Under the pieces are notes generated by a model. It did not search any database, was not told where the DNA came from, and was given only the letters and a program-made list of their open reading frames with translations. DNA of 13,198 nucleotides. It comes from a candidate division NC10 bacterium CSP1-5 (GTDB lineage: Bacteria; Methylomirabilota; Methylomirabilia; Methylomirabilales; CSP1-5). Both the position numbers and the translations under genes were made by a program. Shown piece by piece: positions 1,731 through 13,198 of the stretch (positions within the stretch are counted from its first letter, which is position 1; the number at the start of each line of letters is the position of its first letter). The DNA lies in assembly GCA_001443495.1 (NCBI GenBank), contig LDXR01000030.1, positions 1 to 13,198 of the forward strand, written 5' to 3'.

Positions 1731-1738
1731 GCAAGGCA

Positions 1739-1818
1739 GCTAGAACGCTAGGAAGCTAGTAGGCTCGAACGACGGAAGGCTTTCGCTTCCTAGCCTCCTA
1801 GCATACCAGCATCCCAGC
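1739..1818 (+). repeat. Inverted array of 8-bp units between rplU and rpmA
   Basis: The left arm (1739-1770) is four 8-bp units: GCTAGAAC, GCTAGGAA, GCTAGTAG, GCTCGAAC. The right arm (1787-1818) is four units of the opposite sense: TTCCTAGC, CTCCTAGC, ATACCAGC, ATCCCAGC. Compared as reverse complements, the arms agree at 22 of 32 positions, and unit positions 1, 2, 3, 5 and 7 (GCTnGnAn) agree in every pair. The 16-nt spacer contains GGAAG, which can pair with CTTCC at 1786-1790. A 10-bp perfect inverted repeat (1747-1756 with 1785-1794) is also present, in a different register. The array fills most of the 121-bp gap. Confidence 0.85.
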
Positions 1819-1851
1819 GTCTGATAGCACGGTAGCGAAGCGGAGGAAGAG

Positions 1852-2136
1852 ATGGCGCATAAGAAGGGGATGGGGAGTTCGAGAAACGGCCGCGATAGCC
1901 ACTCGCAGCGGCTCGGGATGAAGGCCTTCTCTGGGCAGACAGTCACGGGCGGGAGCATCCTGGTTCGGCAACGCGGCACCCGATTCAAGCCCGGCTGGAA
2001 CGTCGGGATTGGTCGCGACGATACGCTGTACGCGAAGGTGAGTGGGACCGTTTCCGTCGTAGAGCGGGGAGGCCGAGGTCGTTTTGTGAACGTCACGCCG
2101 GTTTCTGCAGGGGCAACCGCTTCCGATGACCGATGA
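1852..2136 (+). CDS. rpmA: 50S ribosomal protein L27
   Basis: L27 belongs to the large subunit; its N-terminal arm reaches the peptidyl transferase centre. The start [16 protein letters not shown] is the canonical form and lacks the cleavable N-terminal extension of Firmicutes. Conserved stretches [12 protein letters not shown] and [11 protein letters not shown] follow. GGAGG (1842-1846) lies 5 nt before the ATG. At 94 residues it is about ten longer than the usual ~85. The extra C-terminal residues end in SDDR, encoded by the first unit of the downstream 7-bp repeat array, and the stop TGA (2134-2136) is the first three bases of the next unit. The tail therefore looks repeat-derived. Confidence 0.97.
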
Positions 2137-2272
2137 CCGCAAACCTTTGACCCACCCGATGACCGTTGACCGATGTCCGATGACCGTAGGCCGGGGAAGG
2201 CGTTCCCGGTTCTATGTCGTCGGTCGTCGGTGATCGGTTTTCGATACACGGTCGCCGGTGGTCAGTCATCGG
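2127..2272 (+). repeat. Inverted array of 7-bp units between rpmA and obgE
   Basis: The left arm has units such as TGACCGA (2127), TGACCGC (2134), TGACCCA (2148), TGACCGT (2160), TGACCGA (2167), TGTCCGA (2174) and TGACCGT (2181). They are in 7-bp register except for one 5-bp step at 2155-2159. The right arm is eight units in perfect register: TCGTCGG (2217), TCGTCGG (2224), TGATCGG (2231), TTTTCGA (2238), TACACGG (2245), TCGCCGG (2252), TGGTCAG (2259), TCATCGG (2266). The outer ends form an 11-bp perfect inverted repeat, CACCCGATGAC (2153-2163) with GTCATCGGGTG (2265-2275). The centre holds CCGGGGAA (2191) facing TTCCCGG (2203). The array covers the rpmA stop and ends just before the obgE start. 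Confidence 0.85.
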
Positions 2273-2273
2273 G

Positions 2274-2288
2274 TGAACACTGTGTTCA
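2274..2288 (+). repeat. Perfect palindrome over the obgE start codon
   Basis: TGAACACTGTGTTCA is a 7+1+7 perfect dyad centred on base 2281. The right half begins with the GTG start codon of obgE. In DNA it resembles an operator half-site pair; in RNA a 5-bp stem with a 5-nt loop could form. No regulator is identifiable from the window, and it may be a by-product of the adjoining repeat array. Confidence 0.5.
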
Positions 2289-3310
2289 TTGATGTTGCCC
2301 GGATCAAGGTTAGAGCGGGCCAAGGCGGAAAAGGCTGCATCAGCTTTCGGCGTGAAAAGTACGTCCCCCGGGGCGGGCCGGACGGAGGGGACGGCGGACG
2401 GGGAGGCAGCATGTATATGGAAGCCTCCCGATCGGTGGGGACCCTCCTCGATCCGAAATACCAACAGGAGTATCGGGCACCACACGGGGGCCATGGACAG
2501 GGGAAGAAGAAGCGCGGTCGTGACGGGGCGGATGTCATCATCCGGGTTCCCCTTGGTACGGTGATTACGGACCAAAAGACGGGGCGGCTCCTCGGGGACC
2601 TCACGGAAGACCGGCAGCAGGTCTTGGTGGCCCGCGGCGGGCGAGGGGGCCGGGGCAACGCGGCCTTTGCTACGTCCACGCGCCGCGCGCCGCGGATCGC
2701 CGAGGAGGGACGGGCGGGCGAGGAGCGAACGCTCCTCTTGGAGCTGAAGCTCCTGGCCGACGTCGGGCTGGTGGGGGTTCCCAATGCCGGTAAGTCCACC
2801 CTTCTGCGGGCCCTGACTGCGGCGCAGCCGAAGATCGCCGATTATCCTTTCACCACTCTCGTCCCCAATCTGGGGGTCCTTGATCTCTCCCTGAACGAGC
2901 GCATGACGGTGGCTGACATCCCGGGGCTCATCGCTGGCGCCTCGGGAGGTGCGGGTCTTGGTCTCGACTTTCTCCGACACATCGAGCGGGTCCGCTTGGT
3001 CGTGCACGTCCTCGATGTCTCGGAGGCTCACGATCCCCTCAAGGCGTTCGAGGTGGTGGAGGAGGAGCTTCGAGCGTACCGTCGTCCCCTCACCGAGCTC
3101 CCGCGACTGGTGGCGGCCAATAAGATCGATCTGCCCCATAAGAAGAATCTGGCGCGCTGCCAGCGCTATTTTGCCGGCCGGGGAATCCCCCTGTACCCCG
3201 TCTCGGCCTTAACGGGAGCAGGTGTTTCCGCCCTCAAGGAAGGACTCCGGCAGAGCCTCAGGCGAGCGCTAGGCCAGAGGGAGAGCGGTGGAGCGCAGAG
3301 AGCTCTGTAA
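2282..3310 (+). CDS. obgE: Obg-family GTPase
   Basis: ObgE is an essential GTPase that binds the 50S subunit and acts in late ribosome assembly and stress response. The glycine-rich Obg fold is seen at the N-terminus (FRREKYVPRGGPDGGDGGRGG), followed by the G domain: G1 GVPNAGKST from about residue 165, switch YPFTTLVPNLG, G3 DIPGL, G4 NKID, and a final SALTG. The 342-residue product ends soon after the G domain and lacks the OCT-type C-terminal domain of some Obg proteins. I chose GTG at 2282 because family members begin (M)FIDxxxI at this point; in-frame GTG codons at 2258 and 2273 would read through repeat sequence. The only Shine-Dalgarno-like run is GGGTGA (2271-2276). The 3' end overlaps proB by 23 nt, which suggests translational coupling. 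Confidence 0.95.
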   Translation: MFIDVARIKVRAGQGGKGCISFRREKYVPRGGPDGGDGGRGGSMYMEASRSVGTLLDPKYQQEYRAPHGGHGQGKKKRGRDGADVIIRVPLGTVITDQKTGRLLGDLTEDRQQVLVARGGRGGRGNAAFATSTRRAPRIAEEGRAGEERTLLLELKLLADVGLVGVPNAGKSTLLRALTAAQPKIADYPFTTLVPNLGVLDLSLNERMTVADIPGLIAGASGGAGLGLDFLRHIERVRLVVHVLDVSEAHDPLKAFEVVEEELRAYRRPLTELPRLVAANKIDLPHKKNLARCQRYFAGRGIPLYPVSALTGAGVSALKEGLRQSLRRALGQRESGGAQRAL

Positions 3311-4424
3311 GCAGGTGCGGCGCCTGGTCGTCAAGGTGGGCTCGGGGGTCCTGTCCGGGGGGACCCTGTGCCTGCAGGCGGAGGCCATCCAGAGCCTCGC
3401 GAAACAGATCGCCTCCGCGACGGCCCGAGGGGCGCAGATCATTTTGGTCTCCTCGGGGGCGGTGATGGCTGGGCTAGAACGGCTCGAGCGGACGGAGAGG
3501 CCGCGCAGCATCCCCCTGAAGCAGGCGGCGGCCGCCGTCGGCCAGAGTGTGCTCATGGCGACCTACGAGGAGGCCTTTCGGCCCTTCGGGATCAAGGTGG
3601 CCCAGATCCTCCTCACCCAGGAAGATCTCCGGGACCGGGTCCGATACCTGAACGCCCGGCACACGCTCTTCACGCTTTTTGACCTCGGGGTCCTTCCCAT
3701 CGTCAACGAAAATGACACCGTGGCCGTCGAGGAGATCAAGTTCGGGGACAACGACATCCTCTCGGCTTTGGTCGCCTCGTTGGTGGATGCGGATCTTCTT
3801 GTGATGCTCACGGACCAGGAAGGGCTGTATACCGCCGATCCCCGCTCTGACCCAGGCGCGCGGTTGATCCCGGTCCTCTCGAGTCCCTTCCCCTCGGACA
3901 CCTTTTGGGCTGGCCCAGCCCGGACAACCGTTGGGATCGGGGGAATGGCCTCCAAAGTGGAGGCGGCCCGCGTGGCGACCGGTGCCCACATTCCGGCGCT
4001 GGTGGCGAACGGTCTCACGGCGGATATCCTCCTGCGCCTCCTGGCCGGCGAGTCCCTGGGAACCCTCTTCCTGCCCCAGGCGGCCAGGATGGGGAGCCGG
4101 AAGCGATGGCTGGCCTTCGCCACCCGTCCCAAAGGAGAAATCCGGGTGGATGCGGGGGCGAAACGGGCTCTCACGGAGCAGGGGCGGAGCCTCCTCCCCT
4201 CAGGAGTCCAGGGGACGATCAAGGCGTTTGCCGCCGGCGATGTGGTATCGATCCTGGGGGCCGAAGGGGAAGAGTTCGCCCGGGGCCTGGTCAACTACAG
4301 CGCGGAAGAGGTAGAACGGATCAAGGGGCGGAAGAGTAGCGAGATAGAGCGGATCCTGGGGTACAAGCACTCTGACGAGGTCATTCATCGGGACAACCTG
4401 GTCATTGTGGAGGGGCGCAGTTGA
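3288..4424 (+). CDS. proB: Glutamate 5-kinase
   Basis: ProB phosphorylates glutamate to gamma-glutamyl phosphate, the first and feedback-controlled step of proline synthesis. The 378-residue product has the amino-acid kinase domain first (VVKVGSG near residue 14, ILVSSGAVMAG, AAAVGQ, NENDTVAVEEIKFGDND, LLVMLTDQEGLYTADP, GIGGMASKVEAA). A C-terminal PUA domain follows from about residue 280 (GEIRVDAGAKRAL, GVQGTIKAFAAGDVVSI, LVNYSAEE). Length and domain order match the E. coli type. The start is GTG at 3288, inside the last 23 nt of obgE, with a purine-rich AGAGGGAGA just upstream. The gene ends in a TTGA overlap with proA. ProB and ProA form a metabolon in known systems, so coupled translation is sensible. 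Confidence 0.97.
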   Translation: MERRELCKQVRRLVVKVGSGVLSGGTLCLQAEAIQSLAKQIASATARGAQIILVSSGAVMAGLERLERTERPRSIPLKQAAAAVGQSVLMATYEEAFRPFGIKVAQILLTQEDLRDRVRYLNARHTLFTLFDLGVLPIVNENDTVAVEEIKFGDNDILSALVASLVDADLLVMLTDQEGLYTADPRSDPGARLIPVLSSPFPSDTFWAGPARTTVGIGGMASKVEAARVATGAHIPALVANGLTADILLRLLAGESLGTLFLPQAARMGSRKRWLAFATRPKGEIRVDAGAKRALTEQGRSLLPSGVQGTIKAFAAGDVVSILGAEGEEFARGLVNYSAEEVERIKGRKSSEIERILGYKHSDEVIHRDNLVIVEGRS

Positions 4425-5686
4425 GGGAGGTGGAGGCGTTAGCCCGTCAGGCGCGGGAGGCGGCGCGGGCCATGGCGCTCGCCTCGACGGAGGTCAAAAA
4501 TCGGGCTCTGAAGGCGATGGCTCAGGGGCTGCTCGATCGCCAGGCCGAGATCCTCACGGCGAACGCGGCTGACCGCGCCGCCGCGGAGGGCCGGGGACAC
4601 CCGCCCGCCTTTCTCGATCGACTCAGACTGAACACCGAGCGGGTCCGGGCGATGGCGCAAGGGCTCCAGGAGGTAGCAGTCCTTCCCGATCCCGTGGGGG
4701 AGGTGACCGGCATGGAGCGCCGCCCCAACGGCCTCTGGGTGGGTCGCATGCGAGTGCCCCTAGGCGTGATCGCCGTCATCTACGAGTCCCGGCCCAATGT
4801 GACCGCCGATGTGGCCGGACTGTGCCTCAAGGCCGGCAACGCGGTCCTCCTACGCGGCGGCTCGGAGGCGATCCGGTCCAATACGGCCATCGCGGCGGTG
4901 CTCACGAGCTGTGCCGAGACCGCGGGCCTCGCGAAAGGGGCCGTCGGGATCGTGGCGACGACTGATCGGGCGGCGGTGCACGCCCTCCTCAAGCTGGATC
5001 GATTCATCGATCTGGTGATCCCCCGGGGCGGGGAGGAGCTGGTCCGGACGGTCAAGGAGGCGTCGACCATCCCTGTGATCGCCCACGAGAAGGGGCTCTG
5101 TCATATCTACGTGGACGCGAGGGCCGATCTCCCTATGGCCGAGGACGTGGTCTGTAACGCCAAGGTGGAGCGGCCGGGGGTCTGTAACGCCGTCGAGACC
5201 CTGCTGGTGCACGGGGAAGTGGCGCGCGCGTTTCTCCCCAAGGTGGCTCAGCGCCTCGCGGCGGCGGGGGTCGAGCTCAAGGGCTGCCCAAGAACGCGGG
5301 CGGTCCTGCCCCATATCGGCGAGGCCACCGAGACCGACTGGGAGACCGAGTATCTCGACCTGATCCTGTCTATCAAGGTCGTGGACTCCTTTGAGGAGGC
5401 GGTGGCGCACATCGGCCGGTACGGCTCTGGCCTGGCGGAGGGGATCGTGACGAGCGACCATGGTCGCGCGCAGCGCTTCCTGCGCGAGGTGGATGCCGGG
5501 GTGGTGTTCGTCAACGCCTCGACCCGGTTTGCCGACGGGGGGGAATTCGGGTTGGGGGCGGAGATCGGCATCAGCACGCAAAAGCTTCACGCCAGAGGCC
5601 CGATGGGGCTCAAGGAACTTACCTGTACGAAATTCATCGTGCTCGGGGAGGGCCAGGTCCGTGACTCCCGCCCCGGAGCGGGTTGA
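4421..5686 (+). CDS. proA: Glutamate-5-semialdehyde dehydrogenase (gamma-glutamyl phosphate reductase)
   Basis: ProA reduces gamma-glutamyl phosphate with NADPH to glutamate semialdehyde, which cyclises and leads to proline. The 421-residue product is full length. Family blocks are GVIAVIYESRPNVTADV, LCLKAGNAVLLRGGSEA, the catalytic-cysteine block VERPGVCNAVETLL (Cys255), VVFVNASTRFADGGEFGLG, and ISTQKLHARGPMGLKEL near the end. The start is TTG at 4421, overlapping the proB stop in TTGA; GGAGGGG (4409-4415) lies 5 nt upstream, which supports this rare start. Its stop TGA (5684-5686) falls inside a degenerate first unit (GTTGAGG) of the 7-bp repeat array that follows. Confidence 0.97.
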   Translation: MREVEALARQAREAARAMALASTEVKNRALKAMAQGLLDRQAEILTANAADRAAAEGRGHPPAFLDRLRLNTERVRAMAQGLQEVAVLPDPVGEVTGMERRPNGLWVGRMRVPLGVIAVIYESRPNVTADVAGLCLKAGNAVLLRGGSEAIRSNTAIAAVLTSCAETAGLAKGAVGIVATTDRAAVHALLKLDRFIDLVIPRGGEELVRTVKEASTIPVIAHEKGLCHIYVDARADLPMAEDVVCNAKVERPGVCNAVETLLVHGEVARAFLPKVAQRLAAAGVELKGCPRTRAVLPHIGEATETDWETEYLDLILSIKVVDSFEEAVAHIGRYGSGLAEGIVTSDHGRAQRFLREVDAGVVFVNASTRFADGGEFGLGAEIGISTQKLHARGPMGLKELTCTKFIVLGEGQVRDSRPGAG

Positions 5687-5777
5687 GGGTTCATAGTTCA
5701 TGGTTCATGGCATGAGAATTCGGGAGGGCCGGCATGTGCTCTCCCTGTCGCTGAACCCTGAACCCTGAACCCTGAAC
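5682..5777 (+). repeat. Inverted array of 7-bp units between proA and nadD
   Basis: The left arm is GTTGAGG (5682), GTTCATA (5689), GTTCATG (5696) and GTTCATG (5703). The right arm is three perfect TGAACCC units (5752, 5759, 5766) plus a partial TGAAC (5773-5777). GTTCATG against the complement GTTCAGG agrees at 6 of 7 positions, so the arms can pair along their length. A small inner hairpin, GGGAG (5722-5726) with CTCCC (5741-5745), sits in the spacer. The array occupies most of the gap. Confidence 0.9.
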
Positions 5778-5789
5778 GGAGCAGGAGCG

Positions 5790-6524
5790 ATGCGCATCGG
5801 CGTGATGGGGGGAACGTTTGATCCGATCCACCTCGGTCATCTGCGGGCTGCCGAGGAGATCTACTGGGCGTTCGCACTGGATCACATCATCTTTGTCCCG
5901 GCGGCCCGTCCCCCCCACAAGGCGGACCAGGACGTGGCAGCGCCCATCCATCGGTACGAGATGGTCTCGTTGGCCACAGTCTTTTCCCCGTACTTCAGCG
6001 TCTCCCCCATCGAAATCAGTCGACCTGGCCGATCCTACTCGGTGGAGACCCTGCGAGAGCTGCTCAAGCTGTACGGTCCTGAGACCCACCTGTGGTTCAT
6101 CATGGGGGTGGACACCTTTCTGGAGATGAGCACCTGGAAGGAGGCGGCGCAGATCCTGCGCCTGGCCCAAGTCGTCGTGACCGCCCGACCCGGCTGGCGT
6201 CTCGACGAGGTAGAGAAGACCCTGACGCCTCGGCAGCGCCGACAGCTCGGCAGCCCCCAGTTCAAGTACCTGAAGATTGCAGAGGTGACTCCGGACCCGA
6301 GTCGCCGGGGGCCGGTCCCGGGACTGGTTCTACTGGTGGAGGTGGTGTCGCTGGACATCTCCTCCACCGAGATCCGACAGCTTGTGGAGGAGGGGCGAAG
6401 CATCCGGTTCCTGGTCCCCGACACCGTGGCCGCGTACATGAGCAAGAACAGACTCTATCAAGGGCGGCGGGAGGCTGCCGGAGAGGGGGTCCAGGGGAGC
6501 TTGCTTGGAGGATGGGAAGAATAG
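5790..6524 (+). CDS. nadD: Nicotinate-nucleotide adenylyltransferase
   Basis: NadD joins nicotinate mononucleotide and ATP to give deamido-NAD in NAD biosynthesis. The nucleotidyltransferase signature GGTFDPIHLGH is at residues 7-17, and the ISSTEIR motif typical of the family is at 190-196. FVPAARPPHK and the HLWFIMGVDTF / STWKE blocks are also present. The 244-residue product is somewhat longer than the E. coli enzyme (about 213) because of a longer region before ISSTEIR and a C-terminal tail (about residues 222-244). That tail overlaps the start of rsfS and includes its upstream purine-rich region. GGAG at 5778-5781 lies 8 nt before the ATG, immediately after the repeat array. nadD next to rsfS is a widely conserved pair. 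Confidence 0.96.
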   Translation: MRIGVMGGTFDPIHLGHLRAAEEIYWAFALDHIIFVPAARPPHKADQDVAAPIHRYEMVSLATVFSPYFSVSPIEISRPGRSYSVETLRELLKLYGPETHLWFIMGVDTFLEMSTWKEAAQILRLAQVVVTARPGWRLDEVEKTLTPRQRRQLGSPQFKYLKIAEVTPDPSRRGPVPGLVLLVEVVSLDISSTEIRQLVEEGRSIRFLVPDTVAAYMSKNRLYQGRREAAGEGVQGSLLGGWEE

Positions 6525-6865
6525 AGCCGGAGCGACTGGTCGATCTAGCAGCGCAGGCAGCCTGGGAGGTCAAGGCGCACAATCCTGTCATCTTGGACCT
6601 CCGGGGGATCTCGAGCCTTGCGGATCATTTTCTGATCTGCAGTGCCGATTCCGACCGGCACGTCCGTGCCATTGCCGATCACATCGGGGAGTGCCTCGAG
6701 AAGGCGCAGGTCCGGATGCATCACCGGGAAGGGTATCCAGAGGCGCGGTGGATTTTGCTTGACTACCATGACCTCATCATCCATATTTTCGACGCAGAAA
6801 CGCGGCGTTACTACAATCTGGAGTGGCTCTGGGGTGATGCGCCCCAGCGGGAGTACCGAGGCTAG
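6512..6865 (+). CDS. rsfS: Ribosome silencing factor RsfS
   Basis: RsfS binds L14 on the 50S subunit and blocks joining of the 30S subunit under nutrient limitation. The 117-residue product contains the conserved core: VILDLRGISSLADHFLICSADSD, HHREGYPEARWILLDYHD and IIHIFDAETRRYYNLEWLWGDAP. The start ATG at 6512 lies 13 nt inside the nadD 3' end. No good in-frame alternative fits the family N-terminus. GGAGG (6507-6511) touches the ATG with no spacing; an alternative, GGGGAG (6494-6499), is 12 nt away. The site is therefore unusual and translation may depend on coupling to nadD. The stop TAG abuts the next ATG directly. Confidence 0.95.
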   Translation: MGRIEPERLVDLAAQAAWEVKAHNPVILDLRGISSLADHFLICSADSDRHVRAIADHIGECLEKAQVRMHHREGYPEARWILLDYHDLIIHIFDAETRRYYNLEWLWGDAPQREYRG

Positions 6866-7210
6866 ATGAGGGCGTCCAAGCTCAAGGAACTGGAGAAATG
6901 GCTCCTGGAAAAGCGGAAGGGGCTCGTGAGCGGGGTCCGTTCGCGCAATGCCACCAGGTTCGAGACGGAGGGAGGGACGTTGGACCTGGCTGACCAGGCG
7001 GCGAGCGCGTACACCAAGGAGTTCCTGCTTTCCCTGGGTGATGCGGAACGGCGGCTCTTGCGCCAGGTGGACGCCGCTCTGGAGAAGATCCGCCTCCGGA
7101 CGTACGGCACGTGCGAGAAGTGCGGGGAAGAGATCGCCATCAGACGCCTGGAAGCCCTTCCCTTTGCTGAGTTCTGCATTGCGTGCCAGGAGGAGGAGGA
7201 ACGTCGGTAA
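6866..7210 (+). CDS. DksA/TraR-family C4 zinc-finger protein
   Basis: This 114-residue protein has the plan of DksA/TraR regulators: an N-terminal helical region, a short acidic tip, a second helix (about residues 50-78), and a C4 zinc finger with Cys83, Cys86, Cys104 and Cys107. The tip carries D40-L-A-D43-Q-A45, which fits the DxxDxA motif that DksA places in the RNA polymerase secondary channel. With motif and zinc ligands intact, a role in transcription control through the polymerase channel is likely. It is shorter than E. coli DksA (151 residues), so ppGpp dependence cannot be assumed. The ATG follows the rsfS stop with no gap, so the two are probably translated together. A general TraR/DksA zinc-finger annotation is the safe name. 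Confidence 0.88.
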   Translation: MRASKLKELEKWLLEKRKGLVSGVRSRNATRFETEGGTLDLADQAASAYTKEFLLSLGDAERRLLRQVDAALEKIRLRTYGTCEKCGEEIAIRRLEALPFAEFCIACQEEEERR

Positions 7211-7243
7211 GGCGCTTTTCTCCGGCCATCTTCCCCCTTCGGT

Positions 7244-8104
7244 GTGAGGTCGTCGTCGCCAGCGTCCTTCGGCAAGCCCTTCGACCAGCCCTTCGACGCG
7301 CTCAGGACGGTGGGAAACGTCGAACCGCTCAGTCGAGTCGTTGAGACGCGCGGCCGCTTCAAGCGCTGGGGCTCGGAACTCTACTTTGCCCTCCTCCAGC
7401 TCCTGCTCCCGGCCTGGTGTGCCGTCTGTCAGGGCCCGCTCGGCATTGGATCCCGATCGGTCGTCTGCGGCGCCTGCTGGGGAGGGATCCGGATTCTCGA
7501 CGCCCCCTTCTGTCCCCGGTGCGGGCGCCCCTTTTGGGGCAGCGCCCTCGCCCATCCCCCCTCGCACCGTTGCCAGGCGTGCCGGACCCGGGCGCCCCAG
7601 TTCCTTCTCGCCCGCTCCGCCGTTCTCTATGACCGGGACAACCCCCTCCGGGAGATCCTCCTCCTGTTCAAACACGGTCGACGAATCGCCCTGGGGGCCC
7701 ATCTGGGGCGCCTCATGGCGACGCGAGTCGCCGATCTCTTTGATGGGCGCGCCATCGACGCGGTCGTGCCGGTTCCCCTCCATCGAGGACGAGAGCGAGA
7801 GCGAGGGTTCAACCAGGCCGATATCCTGGCCAGGGTCGTCGGCAAGCGTCTCCATCGGCCAGTCCTCCGGAGGACCGTAGAGCGCGTCCGCCCCACCCCG
7901 CCGCAGGCTGGGAAGGCGCGGGACCGCGCGCGGAATGTCCGCGGGGCCTTCGCCGTCCGGGATCCGGTAAGGATCGACGGCCGATCCCTCCTCCTCGTGG
8001 ATGATGTCCTCACGACCGGCGCGACGGTCAATGAGTGCGCCAAGGTCTTGATGAAGGCCGGGGCCCGCACGGTCCTCGTCTACACGCTGGCGCGGGCGCT
8101 GTGA
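7244..8104 (+). CDS. comF: ComF family protein (zinc ribbon plus phosphoribosyltransferase fold), start uncertain
   Basis: ComF proteins pair an N-terminal zinc-binding region with a type I phosphoribosyltransferase fold and are linked to DNA uptake and recombination in competent bacteria. Cysteine pairs are seen in WCAVC, VCGAC, FCPRC and RCQAC, then the ComF blocks NPLREILLLFKHGRR, VVPVPLHRGRERERGFNQA, and the PRPP-binding loop LLLVDDVLTTGAT (7988-8026). The family core begins near 7368 (WGSELYFALLQLLLP). GTG at 7244 gives 286 residues; GTG at 7310 gives 264, nearer the usual size. Neither has a convincing Shine-Dalgarno. Codons between 7263 and 7309 come from a palindromic repeat (reading KPFDQPFDAL), so the N-terminal ~22 residues are doubtful. 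The stop is 3 nt before the gap promoter. Confidence 0.9.
   Translation: MRSSSPASFGKPFDQPFDALRTVGNVEPLSRVVETRGRFKRWGSELYFALLQLLLPAWCAVCQGPLGIGSRSVVCGACWGGIRILDAPFCPRCGRPFWGSALAHPPSHRCQACRTRAPQFLLARSAVLYDRDNPLREILLLFKHGRRIALGAHLGRLMATRVADLFDGRAIDAVVPVPLHRGRERERGFNQADILARVVGKRLHRPVLRRTVERVRPTPPQAGKARDRARNVRGAFAVRDPVRIDGRSLLLVDDVLTTGATVNECAKVLMKAGARTVLVYTLARAL
7263..7309 (+). repeat. Palindromic repeat with 12-bp units at the comF 5' end
   Basis: Three 12-bp units lie in tandem: TCCTTCGGCAAG (7265), CCCTTCGACCAG (7277) and CCCTTCGACGCG (7289), followed by CTCAGGACG. The ends CGTCCT (7263-7268) and AGGACG (7304-7309) are inverted. The pattern CCTTCGAC...GCTCAGGA recalls a dispersed palindromic repeat I know from many environmental bacterial genomes; that link is from memory. 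It lies within the longest comF reading frame. Confidence 0.75.
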
Positions 8105-8106
8105 GG

Positions 8107-8135
8107 TTGACTTCGCAGCGCGCGGCCCCTATCAT
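8107..8135 (+). promoter_or_regulatory. Sigma70-type promoter of the gap-pgk-tpiA-secG operon
   Basis: TTGACT (8107-8112) and TATCAT (8130-8135) are each one base from consensus and are separated by 17 bp. The -35 box begins 3 bp after the comF stop. A start near 8142 would leave a leader of about 62 nt before gap. This is the best promoter after 1349-1377 and coincides with the change from ribosome/cofactor genes to glycolytic genes. Confidence 0.7.
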
Positions 8136-8141
8136 GGATGA

Positions 8142-9209
<1,068 letters not shown>

Positions 9210-9213
9210 GACT

Positions 9214-9241
9214 GTTCACAGTTCACGGTTCATGGTTCACG
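9214..9241 (+). repeat. Direct array of 7-bp units between gap and pgk
   Basis: Four tandem units, GTTCACA, GTTCACG, GTTCATG and GTTCACG, begin 5 bp after the gap stop. They share the unit type of the left arm between proA and nadD, including the exact 12-mer GTTCATGGTTCA (here 9228-9239, there 5696-5707). Unlike the other arrays in this window, no inverted arm follows. Confidence 0.9.
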
Positions 9242-9272
9242 GAAAGGCAGAGCGCACCGACGGGTGCCTGCG

Positions 9273-10463
9273 ATGTTTAATAAGGTGTGTATCGATGAGG
9301 TTGAGCTGAAGGGCAAACGGGTGCTGATCCGGGTAGACTTCAACGTCCCGTTGGAGCAGGGCCGCGTGACCGATGATACCCGGATCCGCGAGAGTCTGCC
9401 CACGATCCGGTACGCACGCCATCAGAAGGCGCGGGTGATCCTCTGCTCCCACCTCGGTCGGCCCAAGGGCAAACCCTCTCCCGAGCTGTCCCTTAGACCG
9501 GTCGCGGTACGTCTGTCGGAGCTGCTCGGGGAGCCCGTTGGGATGGCCGAGGACTGTGTTGGGGAGACAGTGCACGAAGCGGTCGCAAAGCTCAGCGCGG
9601 GCGAGGTCCTCCTCTTGGAGAACCTGCGCTTCCATCCGGAGGAGGAGCAGAATGGAGCGGAGTTCTCCCGGGCGCTCGCGGGGCTGTGCGACGTGTATGT
9701 CAACGACGCCTTTGGTGCTGCGCACCGCGCCCATGCCTCGACGGCTGGCATCACTCGTGTTGTCCCCGTGGCCGCGGCCGGCTTCCTCCTGAGAAGGGAG
9801 GTCGAACACCTCGGCAAACTCCTCACCGCGCCGGAGCATCCCTTCGTGGCGGTGCTGGGAGGGGCCAAGGTCTCGGACAAGATCGGGGTCCTCCGGAATC
9901 TTATCGGGAAGGTGGATGCGTTCCTCCTGGGCGGGGGGATGGCGTACACCTTCTTGAAGGCGGTCGGGTGTTCGGTGGGAAGTTCCCTGGTGGAGGAGGA
10001 CAAGCTGGTGGTTGCCCGCGAGACGATGAAGGCGGCCCGGGCGGCAAAGGTCGCCTTCCTGCCTGCGTCCGACCATGTCGTTGCGGAGCGGATTCAACCA
10101 AATCCCCCGACCCGCGTGGTGGACGGTCCCGAGATCCCCGAGGGGTGGATGGCGCTCGACATCGGCCCCAAGACGCGGGAGGCCTTTGCCGTCGTCATCC
10201 GGGGCGCGCGCACGGTCCTCTGGAACGGACCCATGGGGGTCTTTGAGGTTCCTCCCTTTCATGAGGGGACCTGGGCCGTCGCGGCGGCCATCGCGTCCAG
10301 TGGGGCTACCTCGATCATCGGCGGGGGGGATACTGCGGCGGCTGTCACCCGGGCAGGGGTGGCGGACAAGATGACCCATATCTCGACGGGAGGCGGGGCC
10401 TCGCTCGAGTTTCTGGAAGGGAAGGAGCTGCCCGGGATCGCCGCCCTCACCGATAGACGATGA
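9273..10463 (+). CDS. pgk: Phosphoglycerate kinase
   Basis: Pgk transfers phosphate between 1,3-bisphosphoglycerate and ADP, giving ATP and 3-phosphoglycerate. Blocks in order are [94 protein letters not shown] and [21 protein letters not shown]. The 396-residue length is typical. ATG at 9273 is preferred over GTG at 9264 because the family starts close to the first conserved strand; GGGTG (9262-9266) is the nearest ribosome-binding-like run and partly lies in a small hairpin, GCACC (9254-9258) with GGTGC (9263-9267). The last codons and the stop TGA (10461-10463) lie in 7-bp repeat units. Confidence 0.97.
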
Positions 10464-10520
10464 CAGTTGACCGAAAAAAGCCCCTTGGGTCCCGTGCGGT
10501 CATCGGTGATCGGTCGTCGG
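10450..10520 (+). repeat. Inverted array of 7-bp units between pgk and tpiA
   Basis: The left arm holds TAGACGA (10454), TGACAGT (10461) and TGACCGA (10468). The right arm holds TCATCGG (10500), TGATCGG (10507) and TCGTCGG (10514). Taken as 24-nt arms (10450-10473 and 10497-10520), they match at 17 of 24 positions as reverse complements, around a 23-nt spacer. The unit type is that of the rpmA/obgE array; the 12-mer TCGGTGATCGGT occurs in both (10503-10514 and 2227-2238). The pgk stop is the start of unit TGACAGT. Confidence 0.85.
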
Positions 10521-10530
10521 TTTGCGAGAG

Positions 10531-11298
10531 ATGCGGAAGCCGTTGATTGCCGGCAACTGGAAGATGTACCAGACCACGGGTCAGGCCGTGGCCCTCGTCG
10601 AGCGGCTGCGGGCGCTGCTGGCAGAGATCGCCGGGGTCGACGTAGTGGTTTGCCCCCCCTTCACCGCAATGCAGGCGGTGGCCGAGGCGCTGAAGGGCTC
10701 TCGGATCGGTCTCGGGGCGCAGAATATGCACTGGGAAGGGGAGGGGGCGTATACCGGCGAAGTCTCGCCGGTGATGCTGACGGACCTCGGCTGCCGCTAC
10801 GTCATCTTGGGGCACTCCGAGCGAAGACAGCACTTCGGTGAGACCGACCTCAACGTCAACCGGAAGGTCAGGGCAGCCCTCCGGCACCACCTTGCTCCCA
10901 TCCTCTGTGTCGGAGAGACATTTGGGGAGCGCGAGGAAGGTCGCACGTTTCCGGTGGTCGAGGGGCAGCTCCGCGGAGGGCTGAGCGACATCCCTCCGCA
11001 GGCGGGGGAAGGGATCGTCGTGGCGTATGAGCCGGTCTGGGCGATCGGAACCGGGCACACCGCCACCCCGGAACAGGCGGCAACGGTTCACGCCTTTATC
11101 CGGAAGCAGCTGGGGGAGCTCTGGGGGGAGGCAGCGGGCAGGGCAGTCCGAATCCTCTATGGGGGGAGCGTCAAACCCGATAATATCGATGCGTTGATGG
11201 CCGCGCCGGAGATCGATGGGGCGCTCGTCGGAGGGGCAAGCCTCAAGGCTGATGCCTTTGCCCGTATTGTCCACTTCAAAGCGTCGAAGCGTCCATAG
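10531..11298 (+). CDS. tpiA: Triosephosphate isomerase
   Basis: TpiA interconverts dihydroxyacetone phosphate and glyceraldehyde 3-phosphate. The 255-residue product has Lys11 in AGNWKM, the electrophilic His95 in ILGHSERR, the catalytic base Glu167 in [11 protein letters not shown], and the phosphate loop GGSVKPDN near the end, so all active-site residues are present. ATG at 10531 places the conserved [11 protein letters not shown] at the N-terminus; the TTG at 10522 is less likely. The start has only a weak purine run (GAGAG) upstream, because the region before it is repeat sequence. The stop TAG (11296-11298) spans two 7-bp units of the next array. Confidence 0.97.
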
Positions 11299-11365
11299 TC
11301 CAACGTCCAAAGTCAATCCGAAAGAACCTCGCTGGGGTCTTGACATTGGACTTCGGACTTTGGAC
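11291..11365 (+). repeat. Inverted array of 7-bp units between tpiA and secG
   Basis: The left arm is GTCCATA (11291), GTCCAAC (11298), GTCCAAA (11305) and GTCAATC (11312). The right arm is TCTTGAC (11338), ATTGGAC (11345), TTCGGAC (11352) and TTTGGAC (11359). As reverse complements the 28-nt arms match at 22 positions, and the last four positions of every unit always match. The spacer is 19 nt. This is the clearest of the inverted arrays. It covers the tpiA stop and ends 7 bp before the secG Shine-Dalgarno. Confidence 0.92.
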
Positions 11366-11737: not shown

Positions 11738-13198
11738 ATGCGGGTAAAGCGGATCCTGATCCTGGCTCCGACCCTCGTCGGTCTTTTTCTGCTGCAGTCC
11801 TATTTCTGGGTCCCCACCTTTGAAGATCAGGTGAAAGGGGATCCGGGCCGGCTCACCCGGTATATCGAGACCTCCATTGGCGATGCATCCATCTTGAATC
11901 CCACCCTCGCCGCCGATTCAGCCAGCGCGGCGATTCACACCCTCGTCTTCGAAGGGTTGATCGATCGCGACCTCGACCTCTCCTTCCGCGGGCGACTGGC
12001 CGAGGCGTGGGAGATCTTTGAAGAAGCGTATCTCACCGTGGATGAGACCCAGCGCCTGCCCGACGGCTCTGCGGCCACCGCCGACGAGCTGCTCCGATAC
12101 CTTGAGCGGGCGCGAGCGGCGGGCGAACCCGCGCTCAAGCTCGTCCGGCGGATCGACTTGCTGCCCGGCCGGTCGAGCGTTGAGCAGATCGAGGTGACCG
12201 AACCGGGCCCGGAGCGGCGCAACCCCGTCAAGCGTCAGATCGCGGTGACGGTGCGCCAGCCCCCTCGAATCAAGTTCACCCTCCGCGAGGTCGATCAGGA
12301 CTTCTTTACAAAGATCGACCGCCTCCTCGGTGGGTACGGGGACCGGATCGATCCCTCGCGCTTTGTGCAGGCGGCTGACCCCATCGTCACCCGGGAGCGG
12401 GCCGCGGAACTCGTCCCGCCAACCGAGCACAATCCCGTCGTCCTCTTCCGGCTGCGGAAGGGGATCCTCTTTCACGACGGGCATGAGTTCGACTCGGGCG
12501 ATGTCAAGTTCACGTACGAGGCGATCATGGCACCCGAGAATCTCTCGCCCCGCGTCCCCGACTTTGAGCCGGTCAAGGCGGTCGAGCCCCTCGGCCGGTA
12601 TGCGGTCAAGATCACCTACAAGCGCCTCTTCGAACCGGGCTTCGGGAGCTGGACCATGGGGATCCTGCCCGAACACCTCCTCAACCGGGACGCCCTGCGG
12701 GCGGAGGCGATCCGCGCTGGCCGTGATCCCAAGGACTTTTCCCTGCGCCATTCCCAGTTCAACCGGTCGCCCATCGGCAGCGGCCCCTTTCAGTTCGACG
12801 CGTGGAAGACGGACCAGTTCATTCGTCTCACGCGGTTTGACCGCTACTGGGAGGGGGCGCCGAACCTCCGCGAGTTTCTGTTCCGCATCATCCCCGACCT
12901 GCTGACCGCCGAGGTGACCTTCTATGCCGGGACCAGCGATGCCTACGGTGCACAGCCGCACCAGGTCGAGCGGTTGCGACACGACCCGCGCTTCCAGAGC
13001 TTCTCACGGCTCGGGTTAGGCTACACGTACATCGGGTATAACATGCGACGCCCGATCTTCCAGGACGTGCGGGTGCGGAAGGCATTGGGCATGGCGATCA
13101 ACGTCGAGGAAATCATCGACTACGTGCTCTACGCGCAGGCAGAGCGGACGACCGGTCCCTACCCGAAGCAGACCGAGTTCTACGATCCGACGGTCGAG
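11738..13198 (+). CDS. ABC transporter substrate-binding protein, family 5 (peptide/nickel type), 3'-truncated by window edge
   Basis: This is the extracytoplasmic binding component of an oligopeptide-type ABC importer. The open frame has 487 codons and continues past the window. Residues 1-23 (MRVKRILILAPTLVGLFLLQ...) are a hydrophobic signal peptide or anchor. Family-5 blocks are seen: SILNPTLAADSAS and LVFEGLIDRD early, FRLRKGILFHDGHEFDSGDVKFTYEA from about residue 237, IGSGPFQFDAWK, and YIGYNMRRPIFQDVRVRKALGMAI later. About 145 residues separate AEAWE (88-92) from FRLRKG (237), where typical members have only a short link, so there is a large insertion. ATG at 11738 has no good Shine-Dalgarno and starts 52 bp after secG. 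The transported ligand cannot be told from sequence. Confidence 0.88.
   Translation, partial: MRVKRILILAPTLVGLFLLQSYFWVPTFEDQVKGDPGRLTRYIETSIGDASILNPTLAADSASAAIHTLVFEGLIDRDLDLSFRGRLAEAWEIFEEAYLTVDETQRLPDGSAATADELLRYLERARAAGEPALKLVRRIDLLPGRSSVEQIEVTEPGPERRNPVKRQIAVTVRQPPRIKFTLREVDQDFFTKIDRLLGGYGDRIDPSRFVQAADPIVTRERAAELVPPTEHNPVVLFRLRKGILFHDGHEFDSGDVKFTYEAIMAPENLSPRVPDFEPVKAVEPLGRYAVKITYKRLFEPGFGSWTMGILPEHLLNRDALRAEAIRAGRDPKDFSLRHSQFNRSPIGSGPFQFDAWKTDQFIRLTRFDRYWEGAPNLREFLFRIIPDLLTAEVTFYAGTSDAYGAQPHQVERLRHDPRFQSFSRLGLGYTYIGYNMRRPIFQDVRVRKALGMAINVEEIIDYVLYAQAERTTGPYPKQTEFYDPTVE

Follow-up and report, generated by a model that had tools for sequence, protein, structure and literature searches.

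Arrays of degenerate heptamers have been described before from bacterial genomes. In the trnL intron of Nostoc, the whole replacement of one heptamer class by another in facing arms has been inferred repeatedly (PMC4476775, PMC3488679), and intergenic 7-nt arrays are built from GGGAATC in Xanthomonas and from GGGGA(C/T)T in Nostoc; these vary between close species and are generally unlinked to insertion sequence (IS) elements, while in Xanthomonas, 70-75 convergent inverted pairs are found per genome and arrays are rarer between divergent genes (PMC4692102). Beggiatoaceae carry intergenic TAACTGA direct repeats 5' of start codons, for which the origin is unknown and a role as translation regulator has been proposed (PMC4679880). 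Finally, repetitive extragenic palindromic sequences and bacterial interspersed mosaic elements (REP/BIME) lie between co-directional and convergent genes, often as inverted pairs, with GTAG types accompanied by a transposase (PMC3733652). A search of the open-licence literature yielded no paper that describes such arrays for Methylomirabilota. Here, we analyze degenerate 7- and 8-bp arrays that fill gaps between genes of the candidate division NC10 bacterium CSP1-5, whose contig LDXR01000030.1 constitutes, at its whole length of 13.2 kb, the window referred to below; the genome (G000) comprises 2.77 Mb and is 99.7% complete. Our results point to an as yet unnamed DNA-writing or mobile process behind the arrays and not to an mRNA control signal. 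That they represent genome-wide DNA-level elements, which are replaced as wholes and neutral once resident, is a reading for which we consider the balance to be about even.

With the P6b region of the Nostoc trnL intron, these arrays share degenerate 7-nt units, two facing arms, and the swap of a whole unit class at the same site. Unlike P6b, which is a single tRNA-Leu group I intron locus with two classes, they occupy many gaps between protein genes, belong to approximately ten families, and include 8-bp units. The Xanthomonas arrays are likewise intergenic heptamer arrays with inverted pairs, few between divergent genes and variable in close species; however, a single G-rich unit was studied there and in Nostoc as a G-quadruplex, with no comparison of family swaps or polarity (PMC4692102). 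Intergenic heptamer direct repeats are also common ground with Beggiatoaceae, where, in contrast, the single TAACTGA unit is hardly ever inverted. The initial annotation of this DNA had drawn two further comparisons, and the first of these, to the short tandemly repeated repetitive (STRR) sequences of cyanobacteria, proved to be a good one, since period, intergenic place, and facing arms match, with tandem degenerate 7-nt units at many loci. Indeed, a period-7 array was detected in 60 of 203 gaps at cyanobacterial proA loci (0.7 expected), where facing arms are common, while the same test was negative in Firmicutes and actinobacterial loci. The cyanobacterial units are, however, AT-richer, and their arrays are often longer and more perfect and occur between divergent genes too; the unit letters also differ between the two groups, with some of ours resembling, by eye, GC-richer versions of theirs (GTCATCG versus GTCATTR). 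The second comparison, to REP/BIME, holds for location, i.e., the same kind of gap and frequent inverted pairs, and for nothing else: REP/BIME are fixed dispersed palindromes of 20-40 bp with a GTAG/CGTC tag, whereas here no array-linked transposase and, by inspection, no common palindrome were found, and spacers are unique.

The genome-wide census covered 1.06 Mb of the 2.77 Mb and relied on gene calls from a simple predictor, which missed rpmA of the window. Arrays were present in 87 of 464 co-directional gaps, with period 7 in 72 and period 8 in 18 of them against 0.2 expected each, so that the scan suggested by the initial annotation places the gaps far above expectation. Period 9 followed with 6 gaps, each of the periods 4-6 and 10-12 yielded 0-2, and only 2 of 50 divergent gaps carried arrays. 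An earlier pass over the first 783 kb, in which a score of at least 11 defined a period-7 or period-8 array, had given 39 and 13 of 331 co-directional gaps, respectively (expected 0.10 and 0.15), with 0-3 gaps for periods 4-6 and 9-13 and none among 35 divergent gaps. Furthermore, co-directional gaps, unlike divergent ones, showed elevated autocorrelation at lags 7, 14, and 21. Array sites are gaps between co-directional or convergent genes and seldom promoters. The units form approximately ten families, including the 7-bp GTTCANR, GTCATCG, GTCAGCN, GTGATTR, GTCCRAN, GTCAATR, CTGAGGR, and GTGCAGA as well as the 8-bp GCTAGRAN and GGAGCAAT. Matches clearly exceeded those of a reversed-pattern control for GTTCA (114 versus 3), GTCAGC (65 versus 5), and GTCATCG (31 versus 0), while the excess was weak for GTGATTR (9 versus 7). 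These unit families recur across genera, and among the families of the sampled genomes, arrays were present in f1, f4, and f6, while none were found in the 167 kb sampled from family f7.

The comparison of species that are 92-97% identical revealed an extensive turnover of these gaps. With three species pairs pooled, 25 array gaps were changed and 16 conserved, versus 5 changed and 50 conserved among the other gaps (Fisher 8e-8), and the difference was also evident in the G006-G003 pair alone (Fisher 7e-4). In many changed array gaps, the whole element was swapped for another family, from stop codon to start codon. Such exchanges take place within a few percent of sequence divergence, much more rapidly than the neighboring genes evolve. 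Thus, rplU/rpmA contains GCTAGRAN in G000 and GTTCANR in G005; proA/nadD contains GTTCANR in G000 and G002 and GTCAGCN in G005; and pgk/tpiA differs among three species, with GTCATCG in one, GTCAGCN in another, and an element of GTGATTR type in the third. Between G003 and G006, which are approximately 94-97.5% identical along the window region, the proA/nadD swap extends from the final codons of proA up to the ATG of nadD. The comparison of orthologous gaps, which the initial annotation had called for, hence shows that the unit changes while the gap position persists, with different families in close species. Moreover, close species differ in copy number, and nested elements occur in which one family sits inside another. 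Homologous recombination with co-occurring lineages that carry another element at the same gap could bring about such swaps, and the same families are indeed found throughout genus and order. However, the flanks of swapped gaps retain an identity of approximately 97-98.6% as far as the gap itself, with no divergent tract, and the question of origin would merely be shifted to the donor, which makes this allele exchange decidedly unlikely.

Facing arms are frequent: 33 of 64 co-directional array gaps scored 12 or more for inverted repeats, where 0.4 would be expected. Within each family, the polarity of the arms is fixed. Considering simple two-arm orders only, the ratio of forward-reverse to reverse-forward arrangements was 30:0 for GTTCA, 15:1 for GTCAGC, 13:1 for GCTAGRAN, 6:0 for GTCCRA, 5:0 for GTGATT, and 6:0 for GGAGCAAT, and GTCATCG showed the opposite polarity (0:9). 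A G/T-rich left arm is typical of most families and yet not universal, since GTCATCG and family f4 show the reverse; polarity is therefore a property of the family. Within a unit, the core is fixed and certain positions are free to vary. This pattern was present already in recently swapped elements, in which the identity between adjacent units was 0.90 for the core and, at free positions, 0.55, where independent units would give 0.44. In GTCAGC, GTCATCG, and GCTAGRAN, the free positions of adjacent units mostly resembled each other no more than those of random units.

These unit comparisons bear on the view that local mutation alone, i.e., replication slippage together with fold-back template switching, formed the arrays with no special machinery. 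It would explain the differences in copy number, the fact that neighboring GTTCA units share their N base above chance, and an element of G005 (L248, contig C132, ortholog of L108:4891) whose left arm consists of six perfect GCTAGAAG copies, likely a recent slippage expansion, and stands opposite a degenerate right arm. Fold-back predicts, however, that arms are alike and that both polarities occur, and neither was found; slippage predicts that neighbors are alike at all positions, whereas those of GTCAGC, GTCATCG, and GCTAGRAN are not; and both the recurrence of families across genera and the change of family in whole gaps speak against it. We regard local mutation as even less probable than allele exchange. 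Copying from other arrays of the genome was rejected as well, because 3-unit words common to GTTCA arrays were not in excess (5 versus 8.6 expected). For GTCAGC, shared 3-unit words go back to a duplication in the tuf region plus one further word: L107:5681-5790 and L108:1847-1962 (C2 of G000), 16 kb apart, contain an identical GTCAGC element along with the upstream 40 bp, and their context indicates that these twins were probably copied together by gene conversion between the tuf copies. A three-frame stop cassette, conceivable for a period not divisible by 3, was dismissed by hand, as some units hold no stop.

If a hairpin is kept in mRNA, G.U pairs should be favored, whereas no such preference is expected of a process that does not sense the transcript. 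Among the sense-strand mismatches of 121 elements, 152 were G.U and 144 A.C (P=0.68), and there is thus no G.U excess. Furthermore, the two arms of an element match each other no more closely than they match the arms of other family members, with the exception of the small GTCCRA family (n=6) in one of two comparisons; GTCAGC arms match even worse, which would fit an avoidance of perfect palindromes. In the unit chains of 14 element pairs conserved between species, substitution amounted to 6.6% in the core, 5.8% in the spacer, and 9.7% at free positions, compared to 3.9% in other gaps. The core is therefore without detectable constraint, and the resident arrays appear neutral. In consequence, the proposal that an active process creates or maintains arms able to pair stands in its first half, the creation of arrays with changing units, and falls in its second: arms are independent and pair no better than random arrays of the same family (GTCCRA aside), a G.U excess is missing, and the core drifts at the rate of the spacer.

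The same results weigh on the idea of RNA-level, REP/BIME-like hairpins between cistrons, selected for mRNA processing or differential stability in operons. Such hairpins would be expected between co-directional or convergent genes with nearly none between divergent genes, as observed, and would account for the frequency of inverted arms and for the recurrence, in related species, of elements of one family or another at a given gap. In addition, the RNA of rpmA/obgE and proA/nadD folds significantly better than shuffles (z -4.1 and -3.2). However, of the six gaps of the window, a third shows only a weak effect and the remaining three no improvement over shuffles, and two of the six have no significant second arm; together with the missing G.U excess, the lack of arm covariation within elements, and the like evolution of core and spacer, this renders selection at the RNA level the least probable of the explanations considered. 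The suggestion of the initial annotation that the arrays act in the processing of mRNA or in its differential stability accordingly found no support, with only 2-3 of 6 window gaps folding above shuffles.

A family of mobile elements, cut-and-paste or horizontally imported and similar to miniature inverted-repeat transposable elements (MITEs) or REP, could also replace neutral residents by insertion, with a machinery that recognizes the unit core. Family polarity and nested elements are in line with this, the core/free pattern could serve as a recognition site, and L108:1847-1962, which holds an element in G000 and none in G002, is a possible empty site. In contrast, MITE copies have internal sequence in common, and no two of the compared heptamer elements share a spacer: nine tested spacers are each single-copy in the 2.77-Mb genome, the swapped-in G006 spacer occurs nowhere else among 35 genomes, and no spacer donors were found in the genome or its relatives. 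The 8-bp GGAGCAAT family differs from the others: its copies are genuinely dispersed repeats that share a spacer and carry an AGTAAACGCAC..GTGCGTTTACT palindrome (L087:1802, L093:15828, L101:2570, L101:6764, L118:18358, and L119:16046). REP-associated tyrosine transposases (RAYTs) were rejected as drivers, because the single Y1 transposase gene of G000 has no arrays in its adjoining gaps and the array-bearing G001, a metagenome-assembled genome that is 92% complete, yielded no Y1 match. Transposition or import is thus unlikely, while being the best supported of the alternatives, followed in order by allele exchange, slippage with fold-back, and RNA function.

For the reading as DNA-level elements, i.e., paired or single short arrays of one 7- or 8-bp unit family, the following mechanism may be envisaged. 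Each replacement would be a break-and-refill event in a gap that tolerates damage. Units of a single family would be added inward to both broken ends, and these would subsequently be joined with filler DNA in between, a step that we put forward tentatively, as possible and on the doubtful side. The extending agent would be a polymerase or end-joining activity, slippage would later alter the copy number, and a function in gene expression would not be needed. Inward extension at both ends would explain the common unit, family polarity, independent arms, unique spacers, and boundaries at stop and start codons. More specifically, an activity independent of RVT_1 and Ku might add units de novo at both ends of intergenic breaks in a telomere-addition-like manner, with a templated core, untemplated free positions, and templates that differ per family, and might be shared by Methylomirabilota and cyanobacteria; we consider this version quite unlikely.

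Several observations weigh against the reading as replaced, neutral elements. RVT_1 reverse transcriptases were found neither in G000 nor in G001, so that a retroelement or telomerase-like system with this domain was rejected, and Ku was missing from G000 to G034 except G005, which likewise eliminates classical nonhomologous end joining as the writer. (Across G000-G059, Ku occurs in most f7 genomes, and almost none of the genomes from array-bearing families has it, a distribution that is confounded with phylogeny.) Swapped-in elements could have originated in donors outside the sample and could predate their arrival, the polarity counts take in some orthologous elements of related species, and with 14 conserved pairs, weak selection is possible. 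Moreover, units are duplicated to some extent in GTTCA (identity of neighbors at N of 0.50 versus 0.30 by chance), which, together with the perfect six-copy GCTAGAAG arm, means that slippage contributes.

While heptamer arrays themselves were already known, their genome-wide whole-gap replacement, the family polarity, and the evidence for neutrality are new here. The heptamers of cyanobacteria, Xanthomonas, and Beggiatoaceae have so far been treated as local curiosities and mostly read as regulatory or as products of slippage. The arrays in our data form a single kind of element that is marked by a sharp period and a fixed unit polarity, has arms independent of each other, and is replaced as a whole very rapidly; the origin of heptamer arrays becomes testable with close strain pairs. 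It should be noted that such hairpins are not to be taken for regulatory RNA and that gap sequences of array-bearing genomes are unsuited as stable markers.

Within the window, the arrays lie in two operons, rng-rplU-rpmA-obgE-proB-proA-nadD-rsfS-dksA and gap-pgk-tpiA-secG (gene names from the first reading and ordinary homology). Each gap was compared to 2000 dinucleotide shuffles, and arrays were also detected by Tandem Repeats Finder (TRF). The claim that degenerate arrays fill six gaps was borne out, as all six contained a periodic run (P<0.0005) of 7 bp, or of 8 bp in rplU/rpmA. Facing arms, which had been described for five of these, were significant in four (P<=0.003; rplU/rpmA, rpmA/obgE, proA/nadD, and tpiA/secG) and not in gap/pgk (P=0.92) or pgk/tpiA (P=0.47). 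As also noted initially, the two promoter gaps (1262-1418 and 8105-8204) are free of arrays in the same test, and so are the dksA/comF gap and the gap between secG and the next gene. The left array of tpiA/secG starts within the last codons of tpiA.

Array elements and arms in the six gaps of the window (positions count from the first letter of the contig)
Feature	Position	Strand	Evidence
rplU/rpmA element: left 8-bp GCTAGRAN array, spacer, reverse-complement array	1731..1821	+	period-8 score 17, P<0.0005; TRF 1730-1759 and 1800-1818
rplU/rpmA inverted arms	1739-1756 and 1785-1802	+	inverted P<0.003
rpmA/obgE element: CGATGAC units left, GC-rich spacer hairpin, GTCATCG units right	2156..2243	+	period-7 score 22, P<0.0005; RNA fold z=-4.1
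rpmA/obgE arms	2157-2184 / 2216-2243	+	inverted P=0.003
proA/nadD element: GTTCANR units left, 44-bp unique spacer, TGAACCC units right	5687..5777	+	period-7 score 20, P<0.0005; spacer single-copy in genome
proA/nadD arms	5687-5707 / 5752-5772	+	inverted P<0.003
gap/pgk: lone left GTTCANR array, without right arm	9211..9242	+	period-7 score 17, P<0.0005; inverted not significant
pgk/tpiA: right GTCATCG array (10497-10521) and short left remnant (TTGACCG)	10464..10521	+	period-7 score 12, P<0.0005; inverted not significant
tpiA/secG element: GTCCRAN units left, spacer, right array (11342-11365)	11291..11365	+	period-7 score 11, P<0.0005; TRF 11291-11314
tpiA/secG inverted arms	11299-11316 / 11340-11357	+	TRF 11291-11314

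Furthermore, the species comparisons revealed some changes outside the arrays. The only changed non-array gap of the first comparison differs in the copy number of a GAGAGAAGAGC tandem repeat (L188:8641 in G006 versus L187 in G003). At L222:6240, G006 carries an insertion of approximately 120 bp with a MITE-like look, where G003 has a clean short gap. L222:4748-4900 and 12634-13062 (G006, contig C134) belong to a dispersed repeat family that matches G003 more than 20 times and seems to have no relation to the heptamer arrays.

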